Shown here one piece after another: positions 7,828-34,314 of a DNA stretch of 34,480 nt. Numbering within the stretch: position 1 is the stretch's first letter; every line of letters starts with the position of its first letter. The stretch is taken from positions 1-34,480 of the forward strand of contig JALEKO010000045.1 in NCBI GenBank assembly GCA_022769085.1, read 5' to 3'. Source of the stretch: Peptoniphilaceae bacterium (GTDB lineage: Bacteria > Bacillota > Clostridia > Tissierellales > Peptoniphilaceae). A program made the position numbers and the translations under genes. The notes beneath the pieces were generated by a model. It saw only the letters and a list, made by a program, of their open reading frames with translations. It was not told the origin of the DNA and searched no databases.

Positions 7828-8148
7828 TTAGTTATTTTTTAATTTATTAACTTCTTTATATAATTCAATTAAGTTTTTTGCATTTTCAATTCTTATGTTT
7901 GACATAGTAAGATGGTCTAATGCATGAATTAATAAAACATTTAAATCATTTTTTTGTCCATTTCCTTCTAATGTAATAAGTTTAGATTGTTCATCATGTG
8001 AAACTAAGTATGATTCATTTGCTTTTTCAATTAATTCATCTGCTTTTTCAAAATTAAATTTTTTAGCTTCTTCAATTGCTGCCTTTGCATTATCAGATGC
8101 ATCTGCAGCGTATGTTATTATCTTAAAAATTATATCATTTTTATCCAT
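7828..8148 (-). CDS. PTS lactose/cellobiose-family IIA protein, stand-alone
   Basis: A 106-residue all-helical protein matching the PTS IIA-Lac family, the phosphocarrier that takes phosphate from HPr and passes it to IIB. Family marks are DNAKAAIEEAKKFNFEKADELI near the N-terminus and LLIHALDHLTM, with the phosphorylatable histidine at 75 and the conserved second histidine at 79. Length is normal (about 100-110). An upstream ATG at 8160 has no ribosome site, whereas the ATG at 8148 has GGAG at 6 nt, so it is preferred. No IIB or IIC gene is present in the window. It lies directly downstream of the mglC terminator, whose T-run almost touches its ribosome site. It may serve a PTS encoded elsewhere or play a regulatory role. 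Confidence 0.85.
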   Translation of the reverse strand: MDKNDIIFKIITYAADASDNAKAAIEEAKKFNFEKADELIEKANESYLVSHDEQSKLITLEGNGQKNDLNVLLIHALDHLTMSNIRIENAKNLIELYKEVNKLKNN

Positions 8149-8165
8149 AGTTTTCTCCATTTAAT

Positions 8166-8210: not shown

Positions 8211-9236
8211 TTATTTTTTCTTAATTCTTTTTCTTGTATCTATTGCAACTGCAATAATTATAAGAGCCCCTTTAATAATCAATTGTATATTTGAACTTAA
8301 ACCTATATAAATTAGACCATAATTGATTACTTGAAGAATAATTGAACCTAGTACTATTCCTGGAATTGTACCAATACCTCCAGAAAATGAAACTCCACCA
8401 ATTAAACAGGCTTCAATAGCATCCAAATCGTAGTTTGTTCCTGTTGTAGATGTAACTGAACCTATTCTTGGTCCTTCTAAAAATCCTGATATTCCATACA
8501 TAATTCCAGATAAAAGGAAAACAAGCATTATTGTTCTTTTAATAGAAATACCAGAAACTTCTGCAGCTTCCATATTTCCTCCAACGGCAAACATGTTTTT
8601 TCCTAAAACTGTTTTATTCCAAATAAACCACATTACTACAGTTGCTATAGCAGCATATATTAATAAGTAAGGTAATTTGTAACTTGTTCCAGGTATTGGA
8701 ATTCCACCCATTACCAAAGATGTATAACTATCTTTAAAAACCCCAATAGGTTGAGCTCCCCAAGGAGATGATGCTATATACATTTGTAATAAACCATAAA
8801 CTATAAGTTGAGTACCAAGTGATGCAATAAATGCATGTAAATTTAAATAAGCTACTCCAAAGCCATTTATAAGACCACATATTCCACCAATAATGATAGC
8901 TGCTAATAAACCTACAATAATTGGAATTTCTCCCATGTTAGGGAAAAATTTCTGAGCATATGTTGCAGCCTGTAATAAAGAACCTGCAACTGCAGCACTC
9001 ATACCTACAATACGACCAGCTGAAAGGTCAGTACCTGCCAAAATTAACAAACCACCAGTTCCAAGAGCAATAAATAGCCTTGTGGATGTTTGTGTTAAAA
9101 TATTTAAAAAATTTGTAATGTTAAGGAAACTAGGATCAATTAATATAATTCCTAGTATTAAAACAAAAAGTATTATAATTAAGAGATTATTAATTATAAG
9201 TTCTTTTATATTAGTTTTCTGTTTTACTTCGCTCAT
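8211..9236 (-). CDS. mglC: Galactose/methyl-galactoside ABC transporter permease
   Basis: A 341-residue membrane permease of the BPD-transp-2 (ribose/galactose) family, forming the sugar channel of the Mgl importer. From memory it follows E. coli MglC closely: NILTQTSTRLFIALGTGGLLILAGTDLSAGR, INGFGVAYLNLHAFIASLGT, LGKNMFAVGGNMEAAEVSGI, and the cytoplasmic coupling region EACLIGGVSFSGGIGTIPG. About ten hydrophobic helices are present, with a basic tail. The ATG is 8 nt downstream of the mglA stop. It is the third gene of mglB-mglA-mglC and is followed by a clear terminator. Confidence 0.94.
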   Translation of the reverse strand: MSEVKQKTNIKELIINNLLIIILFVLILGIILIDPSFLNITNFLNILTQTSTRLFIALGTGGLLILAGTDLSAGRIVGMSAAVAGSLLQAATYAQKFFPNMGEIPIIVGLLAAIIIGGICGLINGFGVAYLNLHAFIASLGTQLIVYGLLQMYIASSPWGAQPIGVFKDSYTSLVMGGIPIPGTSYKLPYLLIYAAIATVVMWFIWNKTVLGKNMFAVGGNMEAAEVSGISIKRTIMLVFLLSGIMYGISGFLEGPRIGSVTSTTGTNYDLDAIEACLIGGVSFSGGIGTIPGIVLGSIILQVINYGLIYIGLSSNIQLIIKGALIIIAVAIDTRKRIKKK

Positions 9237-9244
9237 AATTACTC

Positions 9245-10738
9245 CTATACGTATTTAGCCTGTAAGGCCATGATTTTTTCTTGAGTTAAATTTTCATCAT
9301 TTTCAGCTTCTCCAGCAATTCTTCCATTACTCATTACTATAATTCTATTACAAATTCCCATAAGTTCTGTCATTTCGCTAGATATAACAATTACACCTTT
9401 GCCTTCTTTAGCAAGTTTTATAATAAGTTCATATATTTCATATTTTGCACCTACATCAATTCCTCTTGTAGGTTCATCTAAAAGAAGTACTTTAGGTGAA
9501 GTTAGAAGCCATCTTCCTATTATAACTTTCTGTTGATTACCACCTGATAAGTTTGAAATTTTTGCTTTTTGATTTGGGGTTTTTACCTTCATTGAATCTA
9601 TTACAGTTTTACTATCTTTTATCATTCCCTTTTTATCAATTACTTTTTTTGTTTCATAAGCACTTAAATTAGCAATTGTGGAATTAAAAGTAATATCTGA
9701 ATCTGGAAATATTCCAGTAAGTCTTCTTTCTTCTGTAACAAGTGCAAATCCATTCTTTTTGGCTGCTTCAGGATTAGAATTTTCAATTTTTTTACCTTCT
9801 AAAATAATATCTCCTGATAATTTCTCTCTTAGCCCAAAAATAGTTTCTACCAATTCAGTTCTTCTTGCCCCAACTAAACCAGCTATTCCAAGTATTTCTC
9901 CCTTTCTAAGTGTGAAACTTGCATCATGAACAGTTGGTCCATATTTACCAGTTAAATTTTTAACTTCAAGAAGTACATCTCCTCTGAAGTCATGTCTCTC
10001 TGGAAATTGCATAGTCATTTCTCTACCAACCATGGAACTTATAATCTTTTCACTAGTTAAATTTTTTGTATCTTCTGTACTAATATAAGTTCCATCTCTT
10101 AAAATTGTGACTCTATCAGTAATATTTAAAATTTCTTCTATTTTATGAGAAATATATATAATTCCAACGCCTCTATCTCTGAGGGTATTCATAATTGAAA
10201 AAAGTTTTTCAACTTCTTTTTCAGTTAAAGAAGAAGTAGGCTCATCTAAAACAAGTATTTTTGCATTATAAGAAACAGCTTTTGCAATTTCTATTAACTG
10301 TCTTTCTGCAACAGATTTTGTTTCCATTATATCTTTTGGATTAAAATCAAGACCAAGATTATCAAAAACATCTTGACAAAATTTATACATAGCTTTATGG
10401 TCAACAAGACCATGTTTTGTAGGAACTCTTCCCATCATTAGATTTTCTGCAATGGATCTTTTCATAACTTGATTTAGTTCTTGATGAACCATAGCTACAC
10501 CATTATCTAGAGCATCTTTAGAATTTTTAAAATTTACTGTTTTTCCTTCAATTTTAATTTCACCCTGATCTTTTTCGTAGATACCAAAAAGGCATTTCAT
10601 AAGTGTAGACTTTCCTGCTCCGTTTTCGCCCATTAAAGCATGTACTTCACCTTTTCGAAGGTCAAAATTTACGCCATTTAAAGCTCTTACCCCAGGAAAT
10701 TCTTTAACTATGCCTCTCATTTCTAATAAATCAGACAT
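9245..10738 (-). CDS. mglA: Galactose/methyl-galactoside ABC transporter ATPase
   Basis: A 497-residue double ATPase that powers the Mgl importer. The first domain has Walker A GENGAGKST (about residue 38), VAERQLIEIAKAVS as its signature region and Walker B ILVLDEPTSSL. The second domain has a degenerate Walker A (GLVGARRTE, without the usual GKS/T), signature LSGGNQQKVIIGRWL and Walker B VLLLDEPTRGIDVGAKYEI. An intact first and altered second P-loop is normal for sugar ATPases of the MglA/RbsA type. The start ATG follows AGAGGTGAT. A terminator-like hairpin separates it from mglB and probably lowers its expression relative to the binding protein. Confidence 0.95.
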   Translation of the reverse strand: MSDLLEMRGIVKEFPGVRALNGVNFDLRKGEVHALMGENGAGKSTLMKCLFGIYEKDQGEIKIEGKTVNFKNSKDALDNGVAMVHQELNQVMKRSIAENLMMGRVPTKHGLVDHKAMYKFCQDVFDNLGLDFNPKDIMETKSVAERQLIEIAKAVSYNAKILVLDEPTSSLTEKEVEKLFSIMNTLRDRGVGIIYISHKIEEILNITDRVTILRDGTYISTEDTKNLTSEKIISSMVGREMTMQFPERHDFRGDVLLEVKNLTGKYGPTVHDASFTLRKGEILGIAGLVGARRTELVETIFGLREKLSGDIILEGKKIENSNPEAAKKNGFALVTEERRLTGIFPDSDITFNSTIANLSAYETKKVIDKKGMIKDSKTVIDSMKVKTPNQKAKISNLSGGNQQKVIIGRWLLTSPKVLLLDEPTRGIDVGAKYEIYELIIKLAKEGKGVIVISSEMTELMGICNRIIVMSNGRIAGEAENDENLTQEKIMALQAKYV

Positions 10739-10757
10739 ATATCACCTCTTAAAAAAG

Positions 10758-10784
10758 GGCTGTCACAAAAAATTTGCAACAGCC
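10758..10784 (-). terminator. Attenuating hairpin between mglB and mglA
   Basis: Arms GGCTGTTGC and GTGACAGCC with a T-rich loop, followed on the minus strand by CTTTTTT and then directly by the mglA ribosome site. Partial termination here would yield more binding protein than ATPase, as is common in ABC import operons. Confidence 0.75.
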
Positions 10785-10794
10785 AAAATAAAAA

Positions 10795-11898
10795 TTATTT
10801 ACCGTCATAAATCTGATAAGGAATTCTTATAGAAACACCATCATCTGCTAATTTCAAATCAGTTGAATCTATCCAATCTTTACCGTTGATCTTATTTTTA
10901 ATTGCTGCAAGACTACCTTTAGCCATTCCATCAGCATCCTGAAGAACTGTACCAAACATTGTTCCTTTTGCAATTGCTTCTTTTGCTTGTTCTGTTGCAT
11001 CAACTCCAACAACTGGAATTACAGTAGCACCATCTTCTCCTGTATTATATCCTACAGCTTGTAATGCGGTAATTGCTCCAATTGCCATTCCGTCGTTGTT
11101 TGCAATTACAACGTCCAAATCTTTGTCAAAAGTTTGTAACCAACTATCCATAGCTGTTTTAGCTTTTTCTGTTTCCCATTGTGCATCCTGTAATGCCAAT
11201 TCGTTTGTTTTAATTCCTGCATCTTCTAATGTTTTTACTGAATATTCAGTTCTAGCTTGAGCTTCAGGATTATCAACTCCTCCATTGAGCATTACATAAT
11301 CTAAAACGCCATTTCCATTTCTATCTATTTCTTCAGATTTTTCATTCCAAAGTTTTGATAACATTTCACCTTGCATAACTCCTGCATCAGCTGCATTTGT
11401 TCCTACAAACAAAAATTCATCAGTTTTATCACCAATTGACTCTGACATATCTCTGTTAAAGAATACAGTAGGAATATTTTTTGCTTCAATTGTTGAAATA
11501 GCTGTAGGTGCAGCTTTTACGTCAACAATATTTAGAAGAATTCCGTCAACTCCCTGTGCTAAAACGTTGTTAATTTGATCAGTTTGTGTTCCCATGTCTC
11601 CACCAGCATCTTGGAAACTTAATTCTACATCAGGATCTGCTTCATCAAGTTTTTCTAATGCTTGTCTTACTGTAGCTATATAAGTATCGTCAGCTTTGTA
11701 TAAAAGAACTGCAATCTTTTTTGCACCTTCTTTATTTTCTGTAGTAGCTGTTTCAGTACTTGTAGCTGTAACACTTGCTTTGTCTGCACTTGTAGCATTG
11801 TTTCCTGCAGGTGTATTTCCTGCACCACCTGAACATGCTGTAAAAGCAAAAGACATTGCTAATGTCATTAATCCTGCAACAAATTTTTTAGATTTCAT
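10795..11898 (-). CDS. mglB: Galactose/glucose-binding lipoprotein of the Mgl importer
   Basis: A 367-residue extracytoplasmic binding protein that captures D-galactose or D-glucose. It begins with a lipoprotein signal, KKFVAGLMTLAMSFAFTAC, with lipobox F-T-A-C, then a flexible Thr/Ala/Ser linker to about residue 58. The periplasmic-binding fold follows: KKIAVLLYKADDTYIATVRQ, GVDGILLNIVDVKAA, IPTVFFNRDM, DVVIANNDGMAIGA and VPVVGVDATEQA. An EF-hand-like loop DRNGNGVLD with a later Glu in NPEAQAR reproduces the calcium site of E. coli MglB, which supports the sugar assignment. The ATG follows GGGAGG. Upstream lies a near-consensus promoter with a palindrome and a cre-like site. It is the first gene of the mgl operon. 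Confidence 0.94.
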   Translation of the reverse strand: MKSKKFVAGLMTLAMSFAFTACSGGAGNTPAGNNATSADKASVTATSTETATTENKEGAKKIAVLLYKADDTYIATVRQALEKLDEADPDVELSFQDAGGDMGTQTDQINNVLAQGVDGILLNIVDVKAAPTAISTIEAKNIPTVFFNRDMSESIGDKTDEFLFVGTNAADAGVMQGEMLSKLWNEKSEEIDRNGNGVLDYVMLNGGVDNPEAQARTEYSVKTLEDAGIKTNELALQDAQWETEKAKTAMDSWLQTFDKDLDVVIANNDGMAIGAITALQAVGYNTGEDGATVIPVVGVDATEQAKEAIAKGTMFGTVLQDADGMAKGSLAAIKNKINGKDWIDSTDLKLADDGVSIRIPYQIYDGK

Positions 11899-12285: not shown

Positions 12286-12327
12286 TTTTTCCCAAAAAAT
12301 CATTTCCATATGACTTTTTGGGAAAAA
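12286..12327 (-). terminator. Inverted repeat after the amidohydrolase gene, probable operon end
   Basis: 18-nt arms at 12286-12303 and 12310-12327 with a 6-nt loop. The CCCAAAAA/GGG core has one imperfect position, which is a G-U wobble in minus-strand RNA but a mismatch in plus-strand RNA. This suggests it acts on the minus-strand operon. There is no T-run outside the stem, so termination efficiency is uncertain. Confidence 0.5.
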
Positions 12328-12419: not shown

Positions 12420-13580
12420 TTAGTTATTTTTATTTAAAATTTCCATACCGCCTTGAATTACCTGATATACATATTTAAGAGCATCTATATTATCTAAAGG
12501 ATTTTTATCTAAAACAACAAAATCTGCTTTTTTATTGATATCTATAGATCCTAAATCATCTCTTCTTAATATTTTTGCTGCATTTACTGTAATTCCCTTT
12601 AATACATCTATATTTTCAGCACCTAATTCATGAATATATTTGGCTTCTTTTGACAATCCAGCATGTAATCCATCAGTTCCAATTCCAAAATTTATACCAG
12701 CTTTTATTGCTTTTGAAAGGCATTTTTTTATTTTTTCTTTTTCTTGCATACTTTCTTCATAATTCTTTGGGGAAAATTTTAATAAAATATCATCATTTAA
12801 TCCATAACTAGGTGTAAATACCACCCATGTTTTTGTATCTTTTACTCTTTGAATTTGCTCATCATTAATATAATAAACATGTTCGAGTGTCGTAATACCA
12901 GCATCAATACTTCTATCTAGAGCTATTCCACCAGAAACATGAATAGCTGTAGGAATATTTACACTATTTGCTTCTTCTACAACAGCTTGCATTTCTTTTA
13001 AAGTTAAATAAGCTGGTATATTATCATCTTTATTTATCACACCAGTTGTGAATAATTTAAGGAAATCAGCCCCTCTTCTAATATTTTCTCTGGATTGCTT
13101 TCTAAATTCTTGTTCACCTACAAATGGCATACCAACATAACCATGCCCATGCAAACTTCTCATACCTATACCACATACTGTTAATCTTGGTCCTATTACT
13201 CTTCCTTCATTTTGAGCACTTTTAAATGCAATATCTATATAATACTTATCACCCATACATCTAGAAGCGGTCACCCCTGACTCAAGGTCATCTTTCATTG
13301 TTTTAATTGCTCTAATTGAATGTTCTACCTCTGGATCATTCATCTTTTCTAAATGATTTTCTAATCTTGCATCAAGAGCAAGATGATTATGACAATCTAT
13401 CATTCCTGGCATTATAATTTTTTCATTATAATTTAATACTTCATAGTTTGTATTATCAGAATTGAAATTTTCTATTATATCAATAATTTTATCATTTTCA
13501 ATAACTAGACCAATGTCTTTCTTTAATTCAAGATTTTCACCTACTAAAACATTATTAGATGTAATAATTTTTTTTGTCAT
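12420..13580 (-). CDS. Amidohydrolase-superfamily metal-dependent hydrolase
   Basis: A 386-residue TIM-barrel hydrolase of the imidazolonepropionase/Xaa-Pro-dipeptidase-like branch. Metal and active-site residues are visible in order: His64-x-His66 in IDCHNHLALD, Lys175 in DFLKLFTTG (possible carboxylated bridging lysine), His214 in IHVSGG, His234 in TLEHVYY and Asp303 in GTDGLH. N- and C-terminal strands form the usual beta-sandwich (GSIDINKKADFVVLDKNPL). The family cleaves C-N or C-O bonds in cyclic amides, peptides and lactones; the substrate is unknown. It is last in the acid-sugar operon and overlaps the permease stop (TAATG). It might open a lactone or cleave an acyl or amide conjugate to release the acid sugar, but this is inference. 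Confidence 0.82.
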   Translation of the reverse strand: MTKKIITSNNVLVGENLELKKDIGLVIENDKIIDIIENFNSDNTNYEVLNYNEKIIMPGMIDCHNHLALDARLENHLEKMNDPEVEHSIRAIKTMKDDLESGVTASRCMGDKYYIDIAFKSAQNEGRVIGPRLTVCGIGMRSLHGHGYVGMPFVGEQEFRKQSRENIRRGADFLKLFTTGVINKDDNIPAYLTLKEMQAVVEEANSVNIPTAIHVSGGIALDRSIDAGITTLEHVYYINDEQIQRVKDTKTWVVFTPSYGLNDDILLKFSPKNYEESMQEKEKIKKCLSKAIKAGINFGIGTDGLHAGLSKEAKYIHELGAENIDVLKGITVNAAKILRRDDLGSIDINKKADFVVLDKNPLDNIDALKYVYQVIQGGMEILNKNN

Positions 13581-14572
13581 TATTTTCCTTCCTTTTTAAT
13601 GAAAAATTTAGAATCATCTATTATATTTATTCTTTTATTTGATTTTTTTGCCTTTTTAGCAAAATATCCTGTTAAAATAGGAGTGACAATAGTTGTTATA
13701 ACTACAGAAGCTGCTACTTGTGCAGTTGCAACTGGAACTAAAGATTTTAAAGAAGGATCAGCCATTGCAACCGCTGCAGGAACTGCTATTGCATTCCCTC
13801 CTGTTGTCCCAATGGCCATTCCCATTGGATCTTTTTTTCCTCTAATCATACTATAAATATAGTATGTAAGTATACCAGTAAATACAAATGTAATAATTCC
13901 TAAAGCAATTCCACCTATACCAGCTTCTATAATTTGTTTTAAATTAATATTTGATCCAAATAAAAATCCATTAAACGGTAAAATCATTATCAATCCATTC
14001 TGTAAAATTTTTCTAAATTCTTCATCTAAATTACCTAGTATCATACCAATAAGTAATGGAATCAATGCTGCTATAAATGCAATGACAGGAATTTCCGCAA
14101 TGCCAGTCGTTCCCAATGCAATCATAGTTAAAAAAGGACCATCGTTTAACGATAAAATAGCAATAGCTCCTGGATCAGTTTTATCTCCAAATTCTTGTGC
14201 TAGTGCCGTATACATAGCACCATTTGAATTCGTCACCGCTGTAATAATAGCTAAAGGTCCTAATCCCAAAAATGCTTTATCTCCAAATATAAAAAACAAT
14301 CCCCATCCTATCAAAACACCAATTAAGAACTTTAACAAAGTTAAAAAAACACCTTTAACTAAAGGAACTCCTACTTCTTTAAAATTAATAGATGCTCCGC
14401 TACACAAAATAAATAATCCTACCATAGTTGGAGTCCCTGTTTTGAATAAAGCTGTGGTAAATCCACCTATTTCTAATATATTTGGTATAAAAGTATTGAT
14501 TAATGTACCAATGATTAATGGAATTACCATCATTCCACTTGGAAATTTTTTCATATACTCTACTAATTTCAT
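13580..14572 (-). CDS. 2-keto-3-deoxygluconate permease (KdgT) family transporter
   Basis: A 330-residue integral membrane protein with about ten helices. It matches the KdgT family, proton symporters for acid sugars such as 2-keto-3-deoxygluconate. Recognisable parts are MKKFPSGMMVIPLIIGTLINTF at the N-terminus, the LFKTGTPTMVGLFILCSGASI segment, GPLAIITAVTNSNGAMYTALAQEFGD and SLNDGPFLTMIALGTTG. Paralogues in this family import several acid sugars, so the substrate here is more likely the one consumed by the linked kinase and decarboxylase than 2-keto-3-deoxygluconate itself. No KDG kinase or aldolase is nearby. The gene lies 12 nt after otnC and overlaps the amidohydrolase start. Confidence 0.88.
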   Translation of the reverse strand: MKLVEYMKKFPSGMMVIPLIIGTLINTFIPNILEIGGFTTALFKTGTPTMVGLFILCSGASINFKEVGVPLVKGVFLTLLKFLIGVLIGWGLFFIFGDKAFLGLGPLAIITAVTNSNGAMYTALAQEFGDKTDPGAIAILSLNDGPFLTMIALGTTGIAEIPVIAFIAALIPLLIGMILGNLDEEFRKILQNGLIMILPFNGFLFGSNINLKQIIEAGIGGIALGIITFVFTGILTYYIYSMIRGKKDPMGMAIGTTGGNAIAVPAAVAMADPSLKSLVPVATAQVAASVVITTIVTPILTGYFAKKAKKSNKRINIIDDSKFFIKKEGK

Positions 14573-14584
14573 TAATTTTACCTC

Positions 14585-15160
14585 TTAATTATTGTTAAAA
14601 TGATTTAATAACCACGCATTATAAGATGCTTCTTCTATTTCTTCTAGCATATAAAAAGCTTCCATTAATGTTGGAGCACCTACTATAACACCGTGATTTT
14701 TTAGAATATATGCATTATATCCTTTTGTGCTTTCTTTCTTAAACATATCAAATAGTTCTTTGCTACCAGGTTTTGCGTATTTTACAAAACCTATTTTCCC
14801 AACTTTCATATTTAAATATGGAGTTGGAGTTTCAATCTTAAAATCGTTTTCATTATCATACACACATGACCAAAAAGTAGAAAATGTACTGTGCGTATGT
14901 ATAACTGCTTTTTTATTTTTATCAGAATCATACATGTACTTATGTAATGTTATTTCCTTGCTTGGTTTTACATTATTTATAACTTTATTTCCTTCCACTA
15001 TAGAAAAGCTATTTTCTTTTAAATTTCCAAAGCATGAACCTGTTTTTGTTATATATATTTTTTTATCTTTAATAAAACTTAAATTTGCTGTAGAGCCACT
15101 AACTTTGTTTCTATCAAATAATGATTTTGCAATCCATATAGCTTCATCAATCTTTTTCAT
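14585..15160 (-). CDS. otnC: Class II aldolase-fold decarboxylase, 3-oxo-tetronate 4-phosphate decarboxylase type
   Basis: A 191-residue protein of the class II aldolase/adducin family, related to L-fuculose-1-phosphate aldolase. Zinc-type histidines are visible at His88 and His90 (AVIHTHSTFSTF) and His156 (LKNHGVIVG); a conserved acidic residue sits in PSKEITLHKYMY. OtnC enzymes decarboxylate 3-oxo-tetronate 4-phosphate to dihydroxyacetone phosphate and CO2. Assignment to OtnC rather than a sugar aldolase rests on direct linkage to the OtnK-type kinase: the otnK stop and this ATG are adjacent (TAAATG), and the GGAG ribosome site is inside otnK. The protein is slightly shorter than typical OtnC (about 210). 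Confidence 0.85.
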   Translation of the reverse strand: MKKIDEAIWIAKSLFDRNKVSGSTANLSFIKDKKIYITKTGSCFGNLKENSFSIVEGNKVINNVKPSKEITLHKYMYDSDKNKKAVIHTHSTFSTFWSCVYDNENDFKIETPTPYLNMKVGKIGFVKYAKPGSKELFDMFKKESTKGYNAYILKNHGVIVGAPTLMEAFYMLEEIEEASYNAWLLNHFNNN

Positions 15161-16402
15161 TTAACTCTCCATTATTTCTATAGATCTGTTAAAAAAATCT
15201 TCTTGTCCAAAATTTCCAGATTTTAGTATTATCTGAAATTTGGTATTTTCTAGTGGTCTTAAAACTGGTACTCCAGAATCAACAAGTGCTGTTGATTTAT
15301 AAAATTCAAATGGCAAAGATTTTATGATGGCTCCTGATGTTTCGCCGCCTGCAACAACAATTTTTTTAATATCATTTTCATAAGCAAAAACAGCAATTTC
15401 TGAAAAAAATTCTTCAAGCTTATTTGCATTTATTTTTAATTCTTCAGTACTAATATTTTCATCTCTTGTGCTAAAAAACAATATATTTTCATTAGAATTT
15501 AAAATTATATTTTTAATTTTTTTTATATATTCTTCGTTTATATATTTTGCTTTTACTTCTATTGCATAGCCATTATTATCTATGAAATTCTTTATTTGTT
15601 TTTGTGTTTGATTTGACAAGCTTCCAGAAAATAAAATACTTTTGCCACTATTTTTTTCGTAAATTTCTACTTTTTTATTTTCTTTATTTTTAAATAAATA
15701 TTTATACCAATCTCTAATCAATACCGAACTTCCGCTTAGTATTTTTAAATTTCCAAAACTTTCAATTATATTTTCCCCATGTATATTTTTAAAATAATCA
15801 CTTATAATATAAAACTTATTATCTTTATCTATATTATTAACAAAAAAATTTATTGAATCTTTTCCTTTTTCTATTATTTTATAATTTAAAGAATATGATT
15901 TATATTTTGATTGAGCATCCATAAGTCTTGAAAGTTTAGCATCTTTCATTGGTGTAAGTGGATGGTTTGCCATTGACCCTTCATTTAATAAAACTCCATC
16001 TGCAAATAGATATCCATTAAATACTTCTCTGTTGTTATCGGGTAAAGCTGGTGAGATTATTGAATATTTCTGATTATATCTATCTATTAAATAATCCAAA
16101 ACTGGTCCTATATTTCCTTCTGATGTAGAATCAAATGTTGAACAATATTTATCATATATTTTAGTAACACCAATTTTCTCAAAGAAATCAATAGCATCTT
16201 TTACTTTAGATAGAGCTTTTTCTTTTGAAACAGTTCTAATTTTTAAAGCAATAACTACAACTTCTACTTCAAGTTTTGGAATGTGTTTTGGTATATCATT
16301 TACAAGTACACAACTAGCACCTGATTCTACTAAAAATGAACATACATCTGCAGCTCCTGTAAAATCATCAGCTATACATCCAATTAATTGTTTTTTTTCC
16401 AT
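15161..16402 (-). CDS. otnK: Four-carbon acid sugar kinase (DUF1537), 3-oxo-tetronate kinase type
   Basis: A 413-residue member of the two-domain DUF1537 kinase family, which phosphorylates acid sugars with ATP. The N-terminal substrate domain opens with IGCIADDFTGAADVCSFL (Asp12-Asp13), has KYCSTFDSTSEGNIGPV and the ISPALPDNNREVFNGYLF region. The C-terminal nucleotide domain has ILFSGSLSNQTQKQI and VVAGGETSGAIIKSL near residue 350. Known members phosphorylate 3-oxo-tetronates at C4 for the decarboxylase encoded next door; others act on related acid sugars, so the exact substrate is inferred from context. Length is normal. It begins 8 nt downstream of the oxidoreductase stop. Confidence 0.88.
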   Translation of the reverse strand: MEKKQLIGCIADDFTGAADVCSFLVESGASCVLVNDIPKHIPKLEVEVVVIALKIRTVSKEKALSKVKDAIDFFEKIGVTKIYDKYCSTFDSTSEGNIGPVLDYLIDRYNQKYSIISPALPDNNREVFNGYLFADGVLLNEGSMANHPLTPMKDAKLSRLMDAQSKYKSYSLNYKIIEKGKDSINFFVNNIDKDNKFYIISDYFKNIHGENIIESFGNLKILSGSSVLIRDWYKYLFKNKENKKVEIYEKNSGKSILFSGSLSNQTQKQIKNFIDNNGYAIEVKAKYINEEYIKKIKNIILNSNENILFFSTRDENISTEELKINANKLEEFFSEIAVFAYENDIKKIVVAGGETSGAIIKSLPFEFYKSTALVDSGVPVLRPLENTKFQIILKSGNFGQEDFFNRSIEIMES

Positions 16403-16410
16403 AAATCTCC

Positions 16411-17775
16411 TTAATTAATATTTAATCCTTTAAGATATGCTTTATAAGATGGTTTTTCACTTAGGTCTACATCTTGAATTTTTATATAATCTCCTTTTTT
16501 AATATCATTTTTTAGTTTCATTCCATTAAGTAAATAAAATGGAGCTACATCTCTAGCTTCAGATACTTCTAATAATGCTGGTATAACTCCATCAATTGAA
16601 TGATGATGCCCAGAAACTCTCAATATGTCACCTTTATTAAAATTTTTGTCTGCATAAGCAGCCATAACTGAAACTTGTTTACATTCTTTGTGAGTTCCAA
16701 TTCCTTTAATATCTCCTAAAAGTATACTTATTGGTGTTTCAAGACCCATTATGTGAAAAGGATTATATAAACAAGCATATTTTCCATTTTTACTTACTAT
16801 ATGACCTTTTGATCTCATCATATCCCAAGATTTTTCATTTTGGCACTCTACAATTACAAATACTCCACCAGCAAAACTTGCTTCATCTTTTTCACGCAAT
16901 TGAAAAAATACATCTACAACATTTGTATCTTTTAAAATTCCACCATCTTTTTCTGGTATAAGAACATCCGCAAGTTCAGATGTCTTAATGATAGGATAAT
17001 TTAAATATTTATCAGATGCTTTAAAACCTGTAATGTTTGAGACAAGATTCATCTCACATAAATCAGCAGAAATAATATTAATGTAATCTTTTAGTAGCTT
17101 TTTTCTACCATTTAGTGTTTTAATTCCTTCGTATCTCCAATATTTTAGCATTTCAGGCATATCTTCAAATTTTTCAGATCCATCTGTATATGTTATTTTT
17201 CCATTTTCTCTATCCCATACAAAATCATATTCACTAGATTTACCTATTGCAATTACCTTAAATCCATTTATTTTTGCCCATGAATATAAATCAATCGCAT
17301 TTCTTGGTTGATCTCCATTTACTAAACTGTAAACGGTATTATTATCACTTGCTAATTTATTTAAGTATGGACCGCATACACTATCTGTTTCTTTTGAAAC
17401 CATATATACATTAATATTATTTTTAAGTGCAAATTCTGATGCAGATAATCCCAATTCAACATTTCCAGTGCATTCTATAAAAGAAGTAATTCCACTTTGA
17501 ATAAGAATTTTATAATCAGTTGTGATAACAATATCATCGTCATTCAAATTAGAAATTTCTTCAATGTTATTTAATTCTTTAATTTTTTCATTGGGATATC
17601 CCATTTCTAACAATATATTCCTACAATCTTCTATAGACCTTGAAGAAATTGCTCTTAATTTAATTTTTTCTACATTTTTAATTTGAGATAAAACAGTAAG
17701 TCCATATCCTTTTGTGGCACCAATTATACCAACTTTTACTTCTTTTTTTTCTGTAAAAAAATGTGTATAATCCAT
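16411..17775 (-). CDS. NAD(P)-dependent oxidoreductase with C-terminal SAF domain (COG4091-like)
   Basis: A 454-residue two-domain protein. It starts with a Rossmann dinucleotide-binding segment (KVGIIGATKGYGLTVLSQI, then ISSRS after the second strand). A catalytic-type middle follows (FIECTGNVELGLSASEFAL, YSLVNGDQPRNAIDLY). Near residue 390 it enters a SAF domain (PFYLLNGMKLKNDIKKGDYIKIQDVDL). This is the layout of proteins labelled predicted homoserine dehydrogenase with SAF domain. A role in homoserine metabolism is unlikely here. As the promoter-proximal gene of the acid-sugar operon it probably oxidises the acid sugar to the 3-oxo acid used by the kinase, replacing the beta-hydroxyacid dehydrogenase of known clusters. 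Reaction and substrate are inferred. The ATG follows GGGAG at 5 nt. Confidence 0.78.
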   Translation of the reverse strand: MDYTHFFTEKKEVKVGIIGATKGYGLTVLSQIKNVEKIKLRAISSRSIEDCRNILLEMGYPNEKIKELNNIEEISNLNDDDIVITTDYKILIQSGITSFIECTGNVELGLSASEFALKNNINVYMVSKETDSVCGPYLNKLASDNNTVYSLVNGDQPRNAIDLYSWAKINGFKVIAIGKSSEYDFVWDRENGKITYTDGSEKFEDMPEMLKYWRYEGIKTLNGRKKLLKDYINIISADLCEMNLVSNITGFKASDKYLNYPIIKTSELADVLIPEKDGGILKDTNVVDVFFQLREKDEASFAGGVFVIVECQNEKSWDMMRSKGHIVSKNGKYACLYNPFHIMGLETPISILLGDIKGIGTHKECKQVSVMAAYADKNFNKGDILRVSGHHHSIDGVIPALLEVSEARDVAPFYLLNGMKLKNDIKKGDYIKIQDVDLSEKPSYKAYLKGLNIN

Positions 17776-17807
17776 TATTTCTCCCTCTATTTAATTTATA
17801 AATACCT

Positions 17808-17819
17808 TATGTATACATA
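17808..17819. promoter_or_regulatory. Candidate GntR/FCD operator in the divergent intergenic region
   Basis: TATGTATACATA is a perfect 12-bp palindrome with the GTATAC core common in operators of FCD-type GntR regulators. It lies just downstream of the predicted start of the acid-sugar operon. A TTGTAT / ATACAA pair (17820-17825 and 17835-17840) beside it could add a second site. Confidence 0.6.
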
Positions 17820-17831
17820 TTGTATATTTTT

Positions 17832-17860
17832 ATAATACAACGTTTTCAATTATAAGTCAA
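17832..17860 (-). promoter_or_regulatory. Promoter of the acid-sugar operon (TTGACT-17-TATTAT)
   Basis: On the minus strand, -35 TTGACT at 17860-17855 and -10 TATTAT at 17837-17832 are 17 bp apart. The predicted start near 17825 gives a leader of about 50 nt. The spacer holds TGAAAACGTTGTA, half of which fits a CcpA cre site. Confidence 0.7.
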
Positions 17861-17898
17861 ATATTTTTTATGATATAATAAATAAAAGGAGTTTACAG

Positions 17899-18537
17899 AT
17901 GAAAGAACGAATGAGCATGAAAGATCTAGCATATGAATTCATAAAAAATAAAATAATTAATAATGAATTCAAGTCTGGACAATATCTTGAAGAAAAGATG
18001 TTATGCGAAATGATAGGAGTTAGTCGTACACCTGTTAGAGAAGCAGTTAGCCTTTTAGAAAGCGAAGGATTTGTCACTTCAAAAGCAAATAAAGGAATTT
18101 TTGTTTCTACTTTAGATATGAAAACTTCTAAAGAATTATTCCAAGCAAGAGCTTACATTGAACCAATAATACTTGAACTTGCATGGAAAAATTTAGAAAC
18201 AGATAAATTAGAAAAATTTATTATTGATACTAAAGATTTTATTAAAAATAAAGATTATAAATCGTTGAATGAAATAGATTATGAATTTCATAACTATATA
18301 AATTCATGTTGCAATAATACTGTCTTACTTAATATTTCTTATAGACTTCAAGACCAATTTCAAAGAGTTAGAACTCTAAATTATTATGATGATCAAAGAA
18401 TTGAAGGTGGTGCTTATGAACATTTAGATATAATAAAACTTATAAAACAAAATAAACTAGACGAAGCTAAAGTAGCTATGAAGAATCATGTGTACAGTAC
18501 ACAAACTTATTTTTTTATGAGCTTTTTCAAAGAATAA
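17899..18537 (+). CDS. GntR-family transcriptional regulator, FCD subfamily
   Basis: A 212-residue regulator transcribed divergently from the acid-sugar operon, hence its likely local repressor. Residues about 8-70 form the winged helix-turn-helix with the family signature LCEMIGVSRTPVREAVSLLESEG. The rest is an all-helical FCD effector domain with metal-ligand residues in place: Asp-x3-His in DYEFHNY, His in YEHLDII and His in KNHVYS. Such domains bind carboxylates, often through a divalent metal, which suits an acid-sugar inducer. The ATG at 17899 follows AAAGGAG at 8 nt. A palindrome of FCD-operator type lies in the shared intergenic region. A strong terminator follows the stop. Confidence 0.9.
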   Translation: MKERMSMKDLAYEFIKNKIINNEFKSGQYLEEKMLCEMIGVSRTPVREAVSLLESEGFVTSKANKGIFVSTLDMKTSKELFQARAYIEPIILELAWKNLETDKLEKFIIDTKDFIKNKDYKSLNEIDYEFHNYINSCCNNTVLLNISYRLQDQFQRVRTLNYYDDQRIEGGAYEHLDIIKLIKQNKLDEAKVAMKNHVYSTQTYFFMSFFKE

Positions 18538-31338: not shown

Positions 31339-32185
31339 TATTATAAAATAACTTTTCATATAAAAAAGCAAATTCTCCAGCAAATATAATTATCATACTT
31401 GACAAATTAAACCAAATAAAAAGTGCAAATATACCTACTAGTGAGCCGTAAATTACAGACATTGAAGATATGTTTGTTATATAAAATGAAAAAGCAATTG
31501 AAAGTATAAGCCATCCAATAGTAGCTATTAATGATCCAATAAATGATGATTTAAAATTTAATCTTTCTGTCTTTTTAAAATTTGGAGCATATCTAAAAAA
31601 TGATGTAAATGAAAAAATCATTGCTAATATAGGAATTAAATATTGAAGAAATAGTTTATAAATTGGATTAAATACATAATCATATTGCTTTAAATATGGT
31701 TTTATAAACGACAAAAATGCATTTCCATAAGCTGTGAATATCAAAACAGTTAAAATTACAAAACTTAAAATAAGTGTAAAAAATATAGATTTTAATCTTC
31801 CTATTACAAAATTTTTATTTTTTTCTAAACCAAAAGCTTTATTTAATGAATTAATTAAACTTGTAATAGCATTTGATGATGACCAAATCGATACAATTAA
31901 AGACATAGATAAAAGGGAATTAGATCTAGAATTAATTATATTTTCAACAATTGGTCTCATAATTATAAGAGTACTATCGGGTAATATTTTAAAAAATTCA
32001 AAAAGATTATCCAACTGATTTTGAGCAAAAATTGATATAATATTTATTATCACTATAAGCATCGGCACAAGCGACATTATAAAATAATATGCAGTTTGTG
32101 CCGATAAAAAAGTAATTTCATCTTTAGAAATTTCTTTAAATAATAATGAAATAAATTCTTTTTTACTTACTTTCTTTTCTTCCAT
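31322..32185 (-). CDS. YihY/UPF0761-family inner membrane protein (formerly BrkB-like)
   Basis: A 287-residue integral membrane protein with six or so hydrophobic helices. N-terminal EITFLSAQTAYYFIMSLVPMLIVIINII and C-terminal FIGSLIATIGWLILSIAFSFYIT, YGSLVGIFALFIWFNLSSMIIIFAGEF are characteristic of the YihY/UPF0761 family. The earlier ribonuclease BN label for this family is not supported by its sequence. The molecular function is unknown. The start overlaps the lgt end by 19 bases with only a weak ribosome site, so translation is probably coupled. Last gene of the yebC-DUF1461-lgt unit. Confidence 0.88.
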   Translation of the reverse strand: MEEKKVSKKEFISLLFKEISKDEITFLSAQTAYYFIMSLVPMLIVIINIISIFAQNQLDNLFEFFKILPDSTLIIMRPIVENIINSRSNSLLSMSLIVSIWSSSNAITSLINSLNKAFGLEKNKNFVIGRLKSIFFTLILSFVILTVLIFTAYGNAFLSFIKPYLKQYDYVFNPIYKLFLQYLIPILAMIFSFTSFFRYAPNFKKTERLNFKSSFIGSLIATIGWLILSIAFSFYITNISSMSVIYGSLVGIFALFIWFNLSSMIIIFAGEFAFLYEKLFYNKKIQE

Positions 32186-32949
32186 ATAAATATATTTTTC
32201 TTTCTATTAAATGAATATGCCAAAAGCATAATACCAAAAATCACAAAAAGTATACTAACTAATTGAGCTGTTCTTAAACCAAAAATATACAAAGAATCAG
32301 TTCTTAATCCTTCAATAAAAAATCTTACAATTCCATACAATATTAAATAAAATGAAGAAATTGTCCCACTAAATTTTTGATTTTTAAGCATATGCTGCAA
32401 AAAAATAAAAATCAATAAATCTGCCAATGATTCATATAAAAATGTAGGATGAACTCCCACCCCATTTATATTCATAGCCCATGGTAAATTTGTTTCGTAT
32501 CCATATGCTTCCATGTTCATAAAATTCCCCCATCTCCCAATAGATTGTCCAAGTGGAAGAGATGCTAGTGCAATATCAGTTACATCAATAAAAGGAATTT
32601 TTTTATGGTTACAATATACTAACCCTGCAAGTAATGAAAGTATAATTCCTCCATGTATTGCAAGTCCTCCAGCTCTAATGTTGAAAATTTCAATAGGATT
32701 ATTCACATACTGCTTCCATTCAAAAATTACATACCAAATTCTTGCACCTATTATAGCAAAAGGAAGAATAATAAGAAAAAGATCAAATGCAAATTCATCT
32801 GGAAATTCCCTTTTTAGGTAATTTTTGTTTGCTATATAAACAGATAGAATCATCCCTAAAGTTATAATTATTACATACCATCTAACATCAATTCCAAAAA
32901 TTGAAAAAGCAACTGGATTTACATTTACATCTATCATCAAAAGATTCAT
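32167..32949 (-). CDS. lgt: Prolipoprotein diacylglyceryl transferase
   Basis: Transfers a diacylglyceryl group from phosphatidylglycerol to the lipobox cysteine of prolipoproteins, such as the MglB precursor in this window. The 260-residue membrane protein has IDVRWYVIIITLGMI, the RAGGLAIHGGIILSLLAG segment and the family signature GQSIGRWGNFMNMEAYG, followed by HPTFLYESLADLLIF and FFIEGLRTDSLYIFGLRTAQ. The ATG follows AAGGAG at 6 nt. It overlaps the DUF1461 gene by four bases and the YihY-type gene by 19. Confidence 0.96.
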   Translation of the reverse strand: MNLLMIDVNVNPVAFSIFGIDVRWYVIIITLGMILSVYIANKNYLKREFPDEFAFDLFLIILPFAIIGARIWYVIFEWKQYVNNPIEIFNIRAGGLAIHGGIILSLLAGLVYCNHKKIPFIDVTDIALASLPLGQSIGRWGNFMNMEAYGYETNLPWAMNINGVGVHPTFLYESLADLLIFIFLQHMLKNQKFSGTISSFYLILYGIVRFFIEGLRTDSLYIFGLRTAQLVSILFVIFGIMLLAYSFNRKKNIFIWKKRK

Positions 32950-33602
32950 ATTTTTCTCCTTATATATAAAAAAAATAAATTAATAAGTAGCTGTAAAATT
33001 AAAAATACAATTAAAATTATAACTGTAGATTCAATAAAAAAATCGCCACTCATTATTTGCATGATAAGGTCTCTATTTACATCCATAATCCAAAGGTTAT
33101 TGTTAAAAAATATATGATGAAACATTATAAATAATTTATCAAAATTTAATGTTACAAAAATTAAAAATAAAAATAATATACAAGAAAAACTTATATTAGA
33201 TAAAATAATATATTTTAAAATTTTCTTTTTATTATTAGCATTTCTAAATCTATATACAATAATAATTATCAAGATGAGTACAATAAATCTTATTATATAC
33301 ATACTTTTATATATTTTGAAAACGTCAAACATATGCAGATATTCTTTTTTTGAAAAATTTCTTATCATTAGTTCATGATTTCCATTTTTCAAAAAAAGAA
33401 TTATATCAGAAATCGTATTAATCAACTTTTCTTTTGGTATGTTATATAAAGCAGAAATATCATTTCTTATTTGAAAATCAGTATAAAATTTATAATTGAG
33501 AGATTGAAATTCTACTGCAGTAATAATTGATAAAAGAAAAATTAGAAATCCACAAAGGACACTTATGAACTTACTTTTACTCTTGAGATTCTTCAGGAAC
33601 AT
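32946..33602 (-). CDS. TIGR01906/DUF1461 family integral membrane protein
   Basis: About 218 residues with four or five hydrophobic helices: one near the N-terminus (FISVLCGFLIFLLSIITAVEF), a large external loop, two central helices and a C-terminal one. The loop before the last helix, FNNNLWIMDVNRDLIMQIMSGDFF, is the recognisable family element (asparagine/tryptophan followed by an Asp, then a conserved aspartate-leucine). Function unknown; the family is found in Firmicutes and often near lgt or other envelope genes. The frame is open to 33638, inside yebC. I chose the ATG at 33602 (MFLKNLKSKSK), which gives a basic tail before the first helix, but 33632-33638 is possible. Confidence 0.75.
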   Translation of the reverse strand: MFLKNLKSKSKFISVLCGFLIFLLSIITAVEFQSLNYKFYTDFQIRNDISALYNIPKEKLINTISDIILFLKNGNHELMIRNFSKKEYLHMFDVFKIYKSMYIIRFIVLILIIIIVYRFRNANNKKKILKYIILSNISFSCILFLFLIFVTLNFDKLFIMFHHIFFNNNLWIMDVNRDLIMQIMSGDFFIESTVIILIVFLILQLLINLFFLYIRRKI

Positions 33603-34314
33603 TCCAATTCGTATAAACTCCCTGTACGTCATCATCATCTTCTAGTGCATCAATTAATTTAAACAAACTAGAATGCTTACTTTCGTCAACATCTATATAA
33701 TTTGATGGAATATATGAAACCTCAGCATCATCAAATTTATAACCATTTTCAGAAAGAATAGATTTAGTCTCATTAAATGAAGTTCTATCTGTATAAATAA
33801 TATAAGAATCAGTTTCTTCGACTACATCTTCAGCACCAGCTTCTAAAGCATCCATCATAAGTTTATCAAAATCATTTTCTTTATTTTCGGTTCTAAGTAC
33901 TCCTTTTTTTTCAAACAAATACATAACTGAACCATCTGTTCCCAAATTACCACCAAATCTATCAAAAAGATGTCTTACATCTGATGCTGTTCTATTAACA
34001 TTATCAGTTAAGCAATCTACAATTACAGCAACTCCTCCTGGACCATAACCTTCATACACTTTAGAAACATAATCAGATCCTTCTTCTCCACCAGCAGCTT
34101 TTTTTATTGCCCTTTCGATATTATCATTTGGCATATTTATACTTTTTGCTTGTTCAATTGCAGATTTTAATGAAGGATTATATTCAGGCTCTGGACCTCC
34201 TTCTCTTACAGCAACTGTAATAATTCTTGCAACTTTTGTAAAAGCTTTACCTCTTTTTGCATCTTCTTTACCTTTTTTATTTTTTATAGATGACCATTTA
34301 TTATGACCTGACAT
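33577..34314 (-). CDS. yebC: YebC/PmpR/TACO1-family DNA- or ribosome-associated regulator
   Basis: A 245-residue three-domain protein starting with the invariant MSGHNKWSSIKNKKGKEDAK and FTKVARIITVAVREGG. NPSLKSAIEQAKSINMPNDNIERAIKKA, YEGYGPGGVAVIVDCLTDNVNRTASDVRHLF and GNLGTDGSVMYLFEKKG follow. Members have been described as transcriptional regulators, and more recent work ties the family to translation of difficult proline-rich stretches, so the label regulator may be too narrow. The ATG follows AGGAGGAAAT. The 3' end overlaps the DUF1461 reading frame. Confidence 0.95.
   Translation of the reverse strand: MSGHNKWSSIKNKKGKEDAKRGKAFTKVARIITVAVREGGPEPEYNPSLKSAIEQAKSINMPNDNIERAIKKAAGGEEGSDYVSKVYEGYGPGGVAVIVDCLTDNVNRTASDVRHLFDRFGGNLGTDGSVMYLFEKKGVLRTENKENDFDKLMMDALEAGAEDVVEETDSYIIYTDRTSFNETKSILSENGYKFDDAEVSYIPSNYIDVDESKHSSLFKLIDALEDDDDVQGVYTNWNVPEESQE

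Follow-up and report, generated by a model that had tools for sequence, protein, structure and literature searches.

We analysed a 34,480-nucleotide stretch of DNA, hereafter the window, that spans positions 1 to 34,480 of contig JALEKO010000045.1 in the Peptoniphilaceae bacterium assembly GCA_022769085.1 (58 contigs, 81.6% complete). It carries five minus-strand genes that an earlier note had read as one acid-sugar catabolic operon lacking the usual dehydrogenase. The first gene encodes a relative of the isoprenoid enzyme DXR-II, termed here the DXR-II-like oxidoreductase (DLO), and DLO genes recur in other genomes beside genes for an OtnK-type kinase and an OtnC-type decarboxylase. DLO is a fairly probable source of the 3-oxo acid on which these two enzymes would act.

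A five-gene operon with an OtnK/OtnC-type core

The operon and the elements around it are as follows.

16411..17775, minus strand: DLO, 454 aa; proposed 3-oxo-acid-making feeder (Pfam DRL_cat, 94 bits)
15161..16402, minus strand: DUF1537 kinase, OtnK-type (3-oxo-tetronate kinase; Pfam SBD_N, 172 bits, and NBD_C, 79 bits)
14585..15160, minus strand: Aldolase_II protein, OtnC-type 3-oxo-acid phosphate decarboxylase (Pfam Aldolase_II, 115 bits)
13580..14572, minus strand: KdgT-family permease, probable acid-sugar importer (PF03812, 382.7 bits)
12420..13580, minus strand: metal-dependent amidohydrolase that may hydrolyse the compound taken up (PF01979, Amidohydro_1, 104 bits)
17899..18537, plus strand: GntR/FCD regulator, divergent from the operon (PF00392, PF07729)
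17808..17819, no strand assigned: candidate operator TATGTATACATA, between operon and regulator (palindrome)
12286..12327, minus strand: terminator-like hairpin past the last gene (18-pair stem, T-rich tail; consensus match only)

A check of the open reading frames and a Pfam scan agreed with the earlier note on the five genes, their families and their spacing, the gaps from first to last gene being 8 nt, 0 nt, 12 nt and a 1-nt overlap. Its assignment of an OtnK/OtnC-type core was supported. The best NCBIfam models fell under their cut-offs: the kinase scored 341.5 bits against OxoTetrKin, just below the cut-off of 350, compared with 89.1 bits for D-threonate kinase and 79.8 bits for OiaK (cut-off 700), and the decarboxylase scored 141 bits against OxoTetrPhDc (cut-off 250). 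Residues H88 and H90 of the OtnC-type protein are invariant in all five aligned rows. The kinase is the only DUF1537 kinase in the assembly. It sits in a Firmicutes kinase clade of 31 rows (support 100/100), 30 of which come from DLO loci, and within this clade it groups with Terribacillus (100/98), on long branches; its identity to the nearest relatives in the loci collected is 35–42%.

In the known route, LtnD forms a 2-oxo acid, OtnI converts it to a 3-oxo acid, OtnK phosphorylates this, and the Aldolase_II protein OtnC yields dihydroxyacetone phosphate (PMC12540250). The earlier note had a beta-hydroxyacid dehydrogenase supply the 3-oxo acid in described clusters. This had to be given up, because LtnD and DenD yield the 2-oxo acid and OtnI the 3-oxo acid (PMC12540250, PMC10580937); the feeder in an Aldolase_II route must therefore replace the isomerase too. 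OtnC of the Aldolase_II family is the 3-oxo type, and a bypass without OtnI employs an F_bP_aldolase decarboxylase instead (PMC12540250). Since the window decarboxylase is of the Aldolase_II type, a 3-oxo acid would be needed, and DLO is proposed as its maker because it is the sole candidate left within the operon.

DLO shares the fold of DXR-II and lies outside its clade

The only solved structures matching DLO by sequence at E ≤ 0.01 were those of Brucella DRL, a DXR-II enzyme (3upy/3upl, E 2e-26). An AlphaFold2 model of DLO (39 rows, mean pLDDT 95.4) aligned with Brucella DRL over 393 residues at Z 38.0 (3upl, 3upl_B; VIA-align) and at Z 37.9 with 3upy, the next structure outside DRL reaching Z 17.4. 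The earlier note had called the protein a COG4091-like SAF-domain oxidoreductase. The COG4091 type stood. Pfam detected no SAF domain at E ≤ 1e-3, and the structural alignment with Brucella DRL extends across the C-terminal part; the description was corrected to a DXR-II (DRL) relative. No NCBIfam model matched DLO at E ≤ 1e-3.

In a tree of 111 rows, built by a quick method and with several long branches, DLO falls into a clade of 88 rows (SH-aLRT 100) that stands apart from DXR-II. The remaining 23 rows are 21 DXR-II proteins and two distant plasmid proteins (loci L032, from Natronococcus, with a kinase ~8 kb off, and L033), which fall outside the DLO clade. Residues K191, K193, T229 and R320 of DRL are fosmidomycin anchors and interface (PMC3847144). 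All 21 DXR-II rows hold K, K, T and R at these positions, whereas in the 88 DLO rows the first is K throughout, the second S in 85, the third D in 87 and the fourth mostly L or Y. The window protein has K, S and D at the anchor positions K191, K193 and T229, so that two of three differ from DXR-II; around T229 the alignment could be shifted by one column (D or A). The change of K193 and T229 to a serine and an acidic residue speaks against a bound phosphate, and a substrate without phosphate is therefore likely, which fits a step ahead of the kinase. A GHHH motif (DLO residues 389–392), each position of which is kept in at least 85 of the 88 DLO rows, is not conserved in the DXR-II rows and could possibly be a metal or carboxylate site.

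The DLO1 and DLO2 families were left without a function in an earlier survey, in which four DLO1/DLO2 proteins did not complement a dxr mutant and DLO2 included two Spirochaeta strains (PMC3847144). The clade mates of the window protein include a Sphaerochaeta, and the column preceding D238 holds A or P; in DLO2, DRL position 229 is taken by Pro, Ser or Ala. The window protein probably belongs to the DLO2 branch. A recent study drew its DxrII model from COG4091 (PMC10663253); membership of COG4091 is by itself no proof of DXR-II.

Contig C33 of the same genome holds a second DRL-type protein. It falls among the DXR-II rows of the tree, has a match to 3upy at 6e-72 and retains the GKGK, TMVE and RPYH stretches. 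DXR-I gave no match in this genome, the same search being positive in 9 of 14 controls. Because the C33 copy groups with DXR-II and keeps the three stretches, the isoprenoid duty is covered by an ordinary DXR-II. Of the 130 genomes in the family search, the present one among them, 117 have a DRL-type match, the matches in the other genomes being 24–32% identical to the window DLO, and the window amidohydrolase has no match at E ≤ 1e-60 in any other genome of this search. On these grounds the operon was probably acquired from outside, with DLO as a second, foreign member of its superfamily.

DLO recurs with OtnK and OtnC

To compare gene neighbourhoods, we fetched 80 DLO loci, the best 80 of 425 relatives picked by similarity to DLO, so that the kinase counts do not tell how frequent DLO is; the neighbour-family profiles were built from sequences in this analysis. 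OtnK was present in the fetched DNA of 44 loci, OtnC in 39 and both in 39, compared with LtnD-like proteins in eight and OtnI in one. Among the Firmicutes-type loci (L034–L074) of at least 15 kb, 24 of 28 have OtnK. In contrast, OtnK, OtnC, LtnD, KdgT and the amidohydrolase were each found at 0 of 20 control loci around DXR-II (12–20 kb). This comparison strengthens the earlier proposal that the COG4091-type oxidoreductase is the likely feeder. The operon is not a one-off variant, as might have been supposed: the pairing of DLO with the kinase recurs in Firmicutes, Spirochaetes and Proteobacteria. As a variant of the DUF1537 acid-sugar pathway it is real and recurrent.

Co-occurrence of all five families was found at L034, in the same order and with one regulator (a sigma-54 activator) inserted, at identities to the window of 59, 37, 47, 67 and 55%; the five-gene grouping thus recurs more than by chance, and the DLO, OtnK and OtnC core recurs at the 39 loci mentioned above. 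Clusters in Terribacillus, Spirochaetes and enteric bacteria consist of DLO, OtnK, OtnC and a permease with no adjoining LtnD or OtnI, excepting a HIBADH-type protein beside the Terribacillus cluster that scores below the LtnD cut-off. Of the eight plasmid regions opened, the four from Klebsiella (L026), Comamonas endophytica (L028), Paracoccus ferrooxidans (L029) and a Comamonadaceae bacterium (L030) combine DLO with the kinase and the aldolase, and neither LtnD nor OtnI lies close by. In Roseomonas haemaphysalidis (L027), DLO has PdxA and a dehydratase for neighbours and no kinase nearby. A search of E. coli genomes gave no match. Regulators, transporters and a Zn-dependent MDR dehydrogenase excepted, no other unassigned family occurs in at least four of 43 loci (the window and L034–L075).

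The Klebsiella region (NZ_CP057068.1:131017-152363) lies on a conjugative K. pneumoniae plasmid from cattle faeces, in the vicinity of L-idonate genes and insertion sequence elements, and holds otnK, the aldolase, a DeoR gene, a gluconate symporter and DLO; DLO is annotated there as 'homoserine dehydrogenase'. In a Spirochaetales metagenome-assembled genome, a tandem pair of DLO paralogues lies behind TctA (L075:995-3745).

Many DLO loci have no local kinase, and 21 of 22 such genomes were searched. OtnK was found elsewhere in the genome above the cut-off in 17 of these 21, all Proteobacteria, a figure with no base rate to set against it.

A second sample was centred on the kinase. Among 398 genomes of the phylum, 63 were positive, and the best 30 matches (own included) were taken, giving 29 other loci, eight of them on stretches below 14 kb. 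LtnD and OtnI occurred at none of these 29 loci, PdxA at 20 and OtnC at six; an F_bP_aldolase lies beside OtnC in two (L149, L154). KdgT stands by the DUF1537 kinase at 13 of the 29 loci, all 13 with PdxA, and is thus a usual neighbour of this kinase family.

Searches for LtnD and OtnI

LtnD carries the NAD_binding_11 domain (PMC12540250). A search of the assembly for PF14833, the C-terminal domain of LtnD, gave 0 matches, compared with matches in 9 of 14 control genomes, and OtnI gave no match with a query that was strong in five proteobacterial genomes. The earlier note's statement that neither enzyme is at the locus can thus be extended to the whole assembly for LtnD and OtnI, DenD not having been searched for. 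We take DenD to be of an SDR-type family, outside the coverage of PF14833; a Pfam scan of six proteins (the operon and the regulator) gave no SDR family match.

The search for LtnD was then made in 36 genomes or records, comprising 35 of the 39 loci with OtnK and OtnC (all 25 Firmicutes) and a Klebsiella plasmid alone. This set leaves out L082, L098, L101 and L105; the OtnI set adds L098 (n = 37). One member, L067, titled 'Bacterium 1XD21-70', is counted among the Firmicutes by its position in the tree. LtnD relatives were detected in 27 of the 36, four of them above the curated cut-off, and none of the 25 Firmicutes genomes with DLO, OtnK and OtnC had one above it (DenD was not part of this search). 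A strong OtnI match (E ≤ 1e-57) was found in 5 of 37 and in none of the 25 Firmicutes; weaker matches (E 1.5e-20 or weaker) occur in five further genomes, three of them Firmicutes. In Gallibacterium anatis, LtnD, OtnK, OtnC, GntP and DLO are clustered (L081:4796-11326) and the genome has no OtnI match. Because LtnD is present there and OtnI was not found, DLO may supply the isomerisation in this organism.

Entry modules

The window KdgT is 66–72% identical to the KdgT proteins of seven DLO loci (the comparison with L053 spans 39% of the protein) and scores 208.1 bits against the TIGR00793 equivalog, below the cut-off of 453.8. In the amidohydrolase, H64, H66, K175, H214, H234 and D303 are invariant in seven aligned rows, the window included. 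The two genes lie next to each other on the same strand, in the window as well as at all seven of the 80 DLO loci that have both. In one of the relatives, [Clostridium] clostridioforme AGR2157 (L053:11514-13099), the amidohydrolase and KdgT frames are broken or shortened.

Elsewhere, DLO loci hold GntP with a Zn-dependent MDR dehydrogenase, a MatC-like permease, TctA or TRAP genes. These exchangeable transporters, KdgT included, all come from organic-acid families, and KdgT with the amidohydrolase appears from these neighbourhoods to be one among several exchangeable entry modules.

Regulation and neighbouring genes

The palindrome TATGTATACATA (17808-17819) has its sole exact copy in the window between operon and regulator. 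Allowing one mismatch gave two matches in the window where 0.22 were expected, a number reached in 3 of 100 shuffles. Its core TGTATACA is present in the gap between regulator and kinase at L071 and L072 (a near-identical Terribacillus pair) and at L062; further copies lie within these three loci, and 31 copies in the 1.37 Mb of the other 77 loci. The window regulator is 46% identical to the Terribacillus regulator, which belongs to an OtnK-OtnC-MatC-DLO cluster, and 42% identical to that of L062. We predict that TATGTATACATA is an operator for the GntR/FCD protein. Among L034–L075, a PrpR_N-type sigma-54 activator family occurs in 29 loci, as opposed to the GntR regulator of the window, and a sigma-54 factor family in six; these identities rest on one and two representatives checked, respectively.

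The hairpin at 12286-12327, one of three such sites in 7 kb where 1.3 were expected, separates the operon from the downstream MglBAC genes (8211-11898). These were considered as part of the operon and rejected, given the intervening hairpin and their scoring as a galactose system. Just downstream of MglBAC lies a lone phosphotransferase system IIA protein of lactose/cellobiose type (7828-8160, PF02255). Farther off, the window encodes a Lit-family lipoprotein intramolecular transacylase (32946-33638; Pfam Lit, 98.8 bits), and the neighbouring gene (32167-32949) resembles Lgt by eye.

A proposed pathway and its alternatives

Computation gave the genes and their order, the protein families, the fold, the altered residues, the repeated occurrence of the set and the failure to find LtnD and OtnI. 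From these results we infer each reaction, the substrate and the regulation of the operon. We consider it fairly probable that this is a small sugar-acid catabolic operon in which a 3-oxo acid produced by DLO is converted to dihydroxyacetone phosphate by OtnK and OtnC. According to this model, KdgT would import the compound, and the amidohydrolase would probably cleave an amide, ester or lactone to liberate the free acid. DLO would then use NAD(P)+ to convert the acid to the 3-oxo acid, thereby replacing LtnD (or DenD) and OtnI, either by direct oxidation at C3 or by an oxidation with isomerisation that resembles a reversed DXR-II reaction. OtnK would phosphorylate the 3-oxo acid, OtnC would decarboxylate the product to dihydroxyacetone phosphate and CO2, and the GntR/FCD protein would act at the palindrome.

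Kinship with DXR-II makes oxidation with isomerisation a real possibility, favoured over direct C3 oxidation by analogy only. The substrate would be a small, non-phosphorylated acid, a C4 tetronate being the likeliest. The earlier note had proposed a different or conjugated acid sugar; an ordinary free tetronate seems at least as likely, because related loci run the core with a permease only and KdgT also adjoins DUF1537/PdxA pairs. More tentatively, and with less conviction than we attach to the pathway, the whole DLO clade may consist of sugar-acid oxidoisomerases, in which a single NAD(P)-dependent protein would both oxidise and rearrange an acid without phosphate, giving the 3-oxo acid.

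Several observations weigh against the proposed pathway. No member of the DLO clade has a known activity, the kinase and decarboxylase both score under their NCBIfam cut-offs, and among the 390 other genomes searched in the class just two have a close DLO (57 and 59% identity; a third match, at 31%, is of DXR-II type). Seen from the kinase, DLO was found at none of the 29 same-phylum loci, and L148, in the same kinase clade as the window, has OtnK, OtnC, an MDR dehydrogenase and TRAP genes without DLO. A Zn-dependent MDR dehydrogenase stands at 17 of the 80 DLO loci and could be the oxidising step there. LtnD is present at some DLO loci too (L081, L098, and L031 together with OtnK and OtnI), and 17 of the 25 Firmicutes genomes carry LtnD relatives below the cut-off (up to 216 of 350 bits). 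No OtnK was found in the fetched DNA of 36 of the 80 loci, some of them on short contigs, and among the 21 searched genomes with kinase-less loci one has a weak OtnK match and three have none. In two of these three (L051 and L070) a transaldolase-family gene adjoins DLO (L051:9995-12417, L070:9004-11526 and likewise L115:12016-13615; TAL_FSA in the one tested), and TctA-type genes precede DLO in both; the transaldolase-linked loci may put the DLO product to another use. At Roseomonas-type loci the neighbours of DLO are PdxA, Tct genes and, in some cases, an IlvD-type dehydratase, and the DLO product may therefore differ between subclades.

That DLO performs a side step, such as an epimerisation or the handling of another acid, and that OtnK is fed by a dehydrogenase encoded elsewhere, by DenD or by an enzyme in the missing part of an assembly 81.6% complete, is unlikely in our view. 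It would accommodate the DLO genes beside LtnD in Gallibacterium (L081) and Haemophilus massiliensis, the DLO near a canonical LtnD, OtnK and OtnI set in Agrobacterium leguminum (L031), and the MDR dehydrogenases just described. However, none of the 25 Firmicutes genomes with DLO, OtnK and OtnC has LtnD above the cut-off, and the Terribacillus, Spirochaete and enteric clusters stand without adjoining LtnD or OtnI, save the HIBADH-type protein in Terribacillus.

We regard as rather unlikely a different acid, branched or C5, degraded as in the apionate routes, with DLO as a true oxidoisomerase that moves a carbon group and an end product that is not simply dihydroxyacetone phosphate. The substrate of kinase and decarboxylase would then be a 3-oxo acid that is branched or longer, which their scores under the tetronate cut-offs and the low identity of the kinase to its relatives would allow, and the nearest characterised relative of DLO, DXR-II, is a reductoisomerase (PMC3847144). 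The preference of the kinase for OxoTetrKin over the D-threonate kinase and OiaK models points the other way, as does the core with a single permease, which seems complete in several clusters, as for a simple tetronate. It is highly improbable, and already contradicted, that DLO is a DXR-II isoprenoid enzyme caught in a sugar operon by chance. The shared fold and the COG4091 origin of a DxrII model (PMC10663253) are what would suggest it; we rejected this assignment because DLO lies outside the DXR-II clade, has changed anchor residues and coexists with a standard DXR-II, and four DLO1/DLO2 proteins did not complement dxr (PMC3847144).

The recurrent pairing with OtnK and OtnC, in Firmicutes in which LtnD and OtnI searches were negative, gives the DLO family a concrete substrate class, and would help to correct the names that plasmid relatives carry, among them 'homoserine dehydrogenase' and 'flagellar biosynthesis protein FlgA'. 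If the proposed pathway is true, an isoprenoid-type reductoisomerase fold has been turned to sugar-acid catabolism. If the oxidoisomerase proposal also holds, one enzyme does the job of two unrelated enzymes in the known route and works with exchangeable entry modules (KdgT and amidohydrolase, GntP and MDR dehydrogenase, MatC-like or TctA); the clade would be a functional sister of the isoprenoid enzyme, and the unassigned DLO2 family would be explained. The literature searched, mostly titles and the starts of abstracts, names no link between DLO and OtnK, and an earlier mention is possible.

Comparison with known systems

The operon resembles the L-threonate/D-erythronate pathway in that a DUF1537 kinase and an Aldolase_II decarboxylase, both probably of the types found there, adjoin each other, with a transporter and a regulator. 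Unlike that pathway, the window has a DXR-II-like enzyme, KdgT and an amidohydrolase, and the searches made for LtnD and OtnI, which did not cover DenD, were negative. It shares KdgT near a DUF1537 kinase with the clusters of DUF1537 kinase, PdxA and KdgT, which we take to be of the D-threonate type and in which PdxA presumably oxidises after phosphorylation; here, by contrast, Aldolase_II and DLO are present and PdxA has no match.

The D-apionate oxidoisomerase route (ApnO/OiaK/OiaC) offers the idea of an oxidoisomerase that feeds a DUF1537 kinase. Of its enzymes OiaK alone was compared, and the window kinase differs from it, with 79.8 bits against a cut-off of 700. With DXR-II/DRL of Brucella (3upl/3upy), DLO has in common the fold over its whole length and the invariant K179 (equivalent to K191). 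It departs from DXR-II in the replacement of K193 by S and of T229 by D, the loss of R320, the GHHH motif and its sugar-acid gene neighbours.

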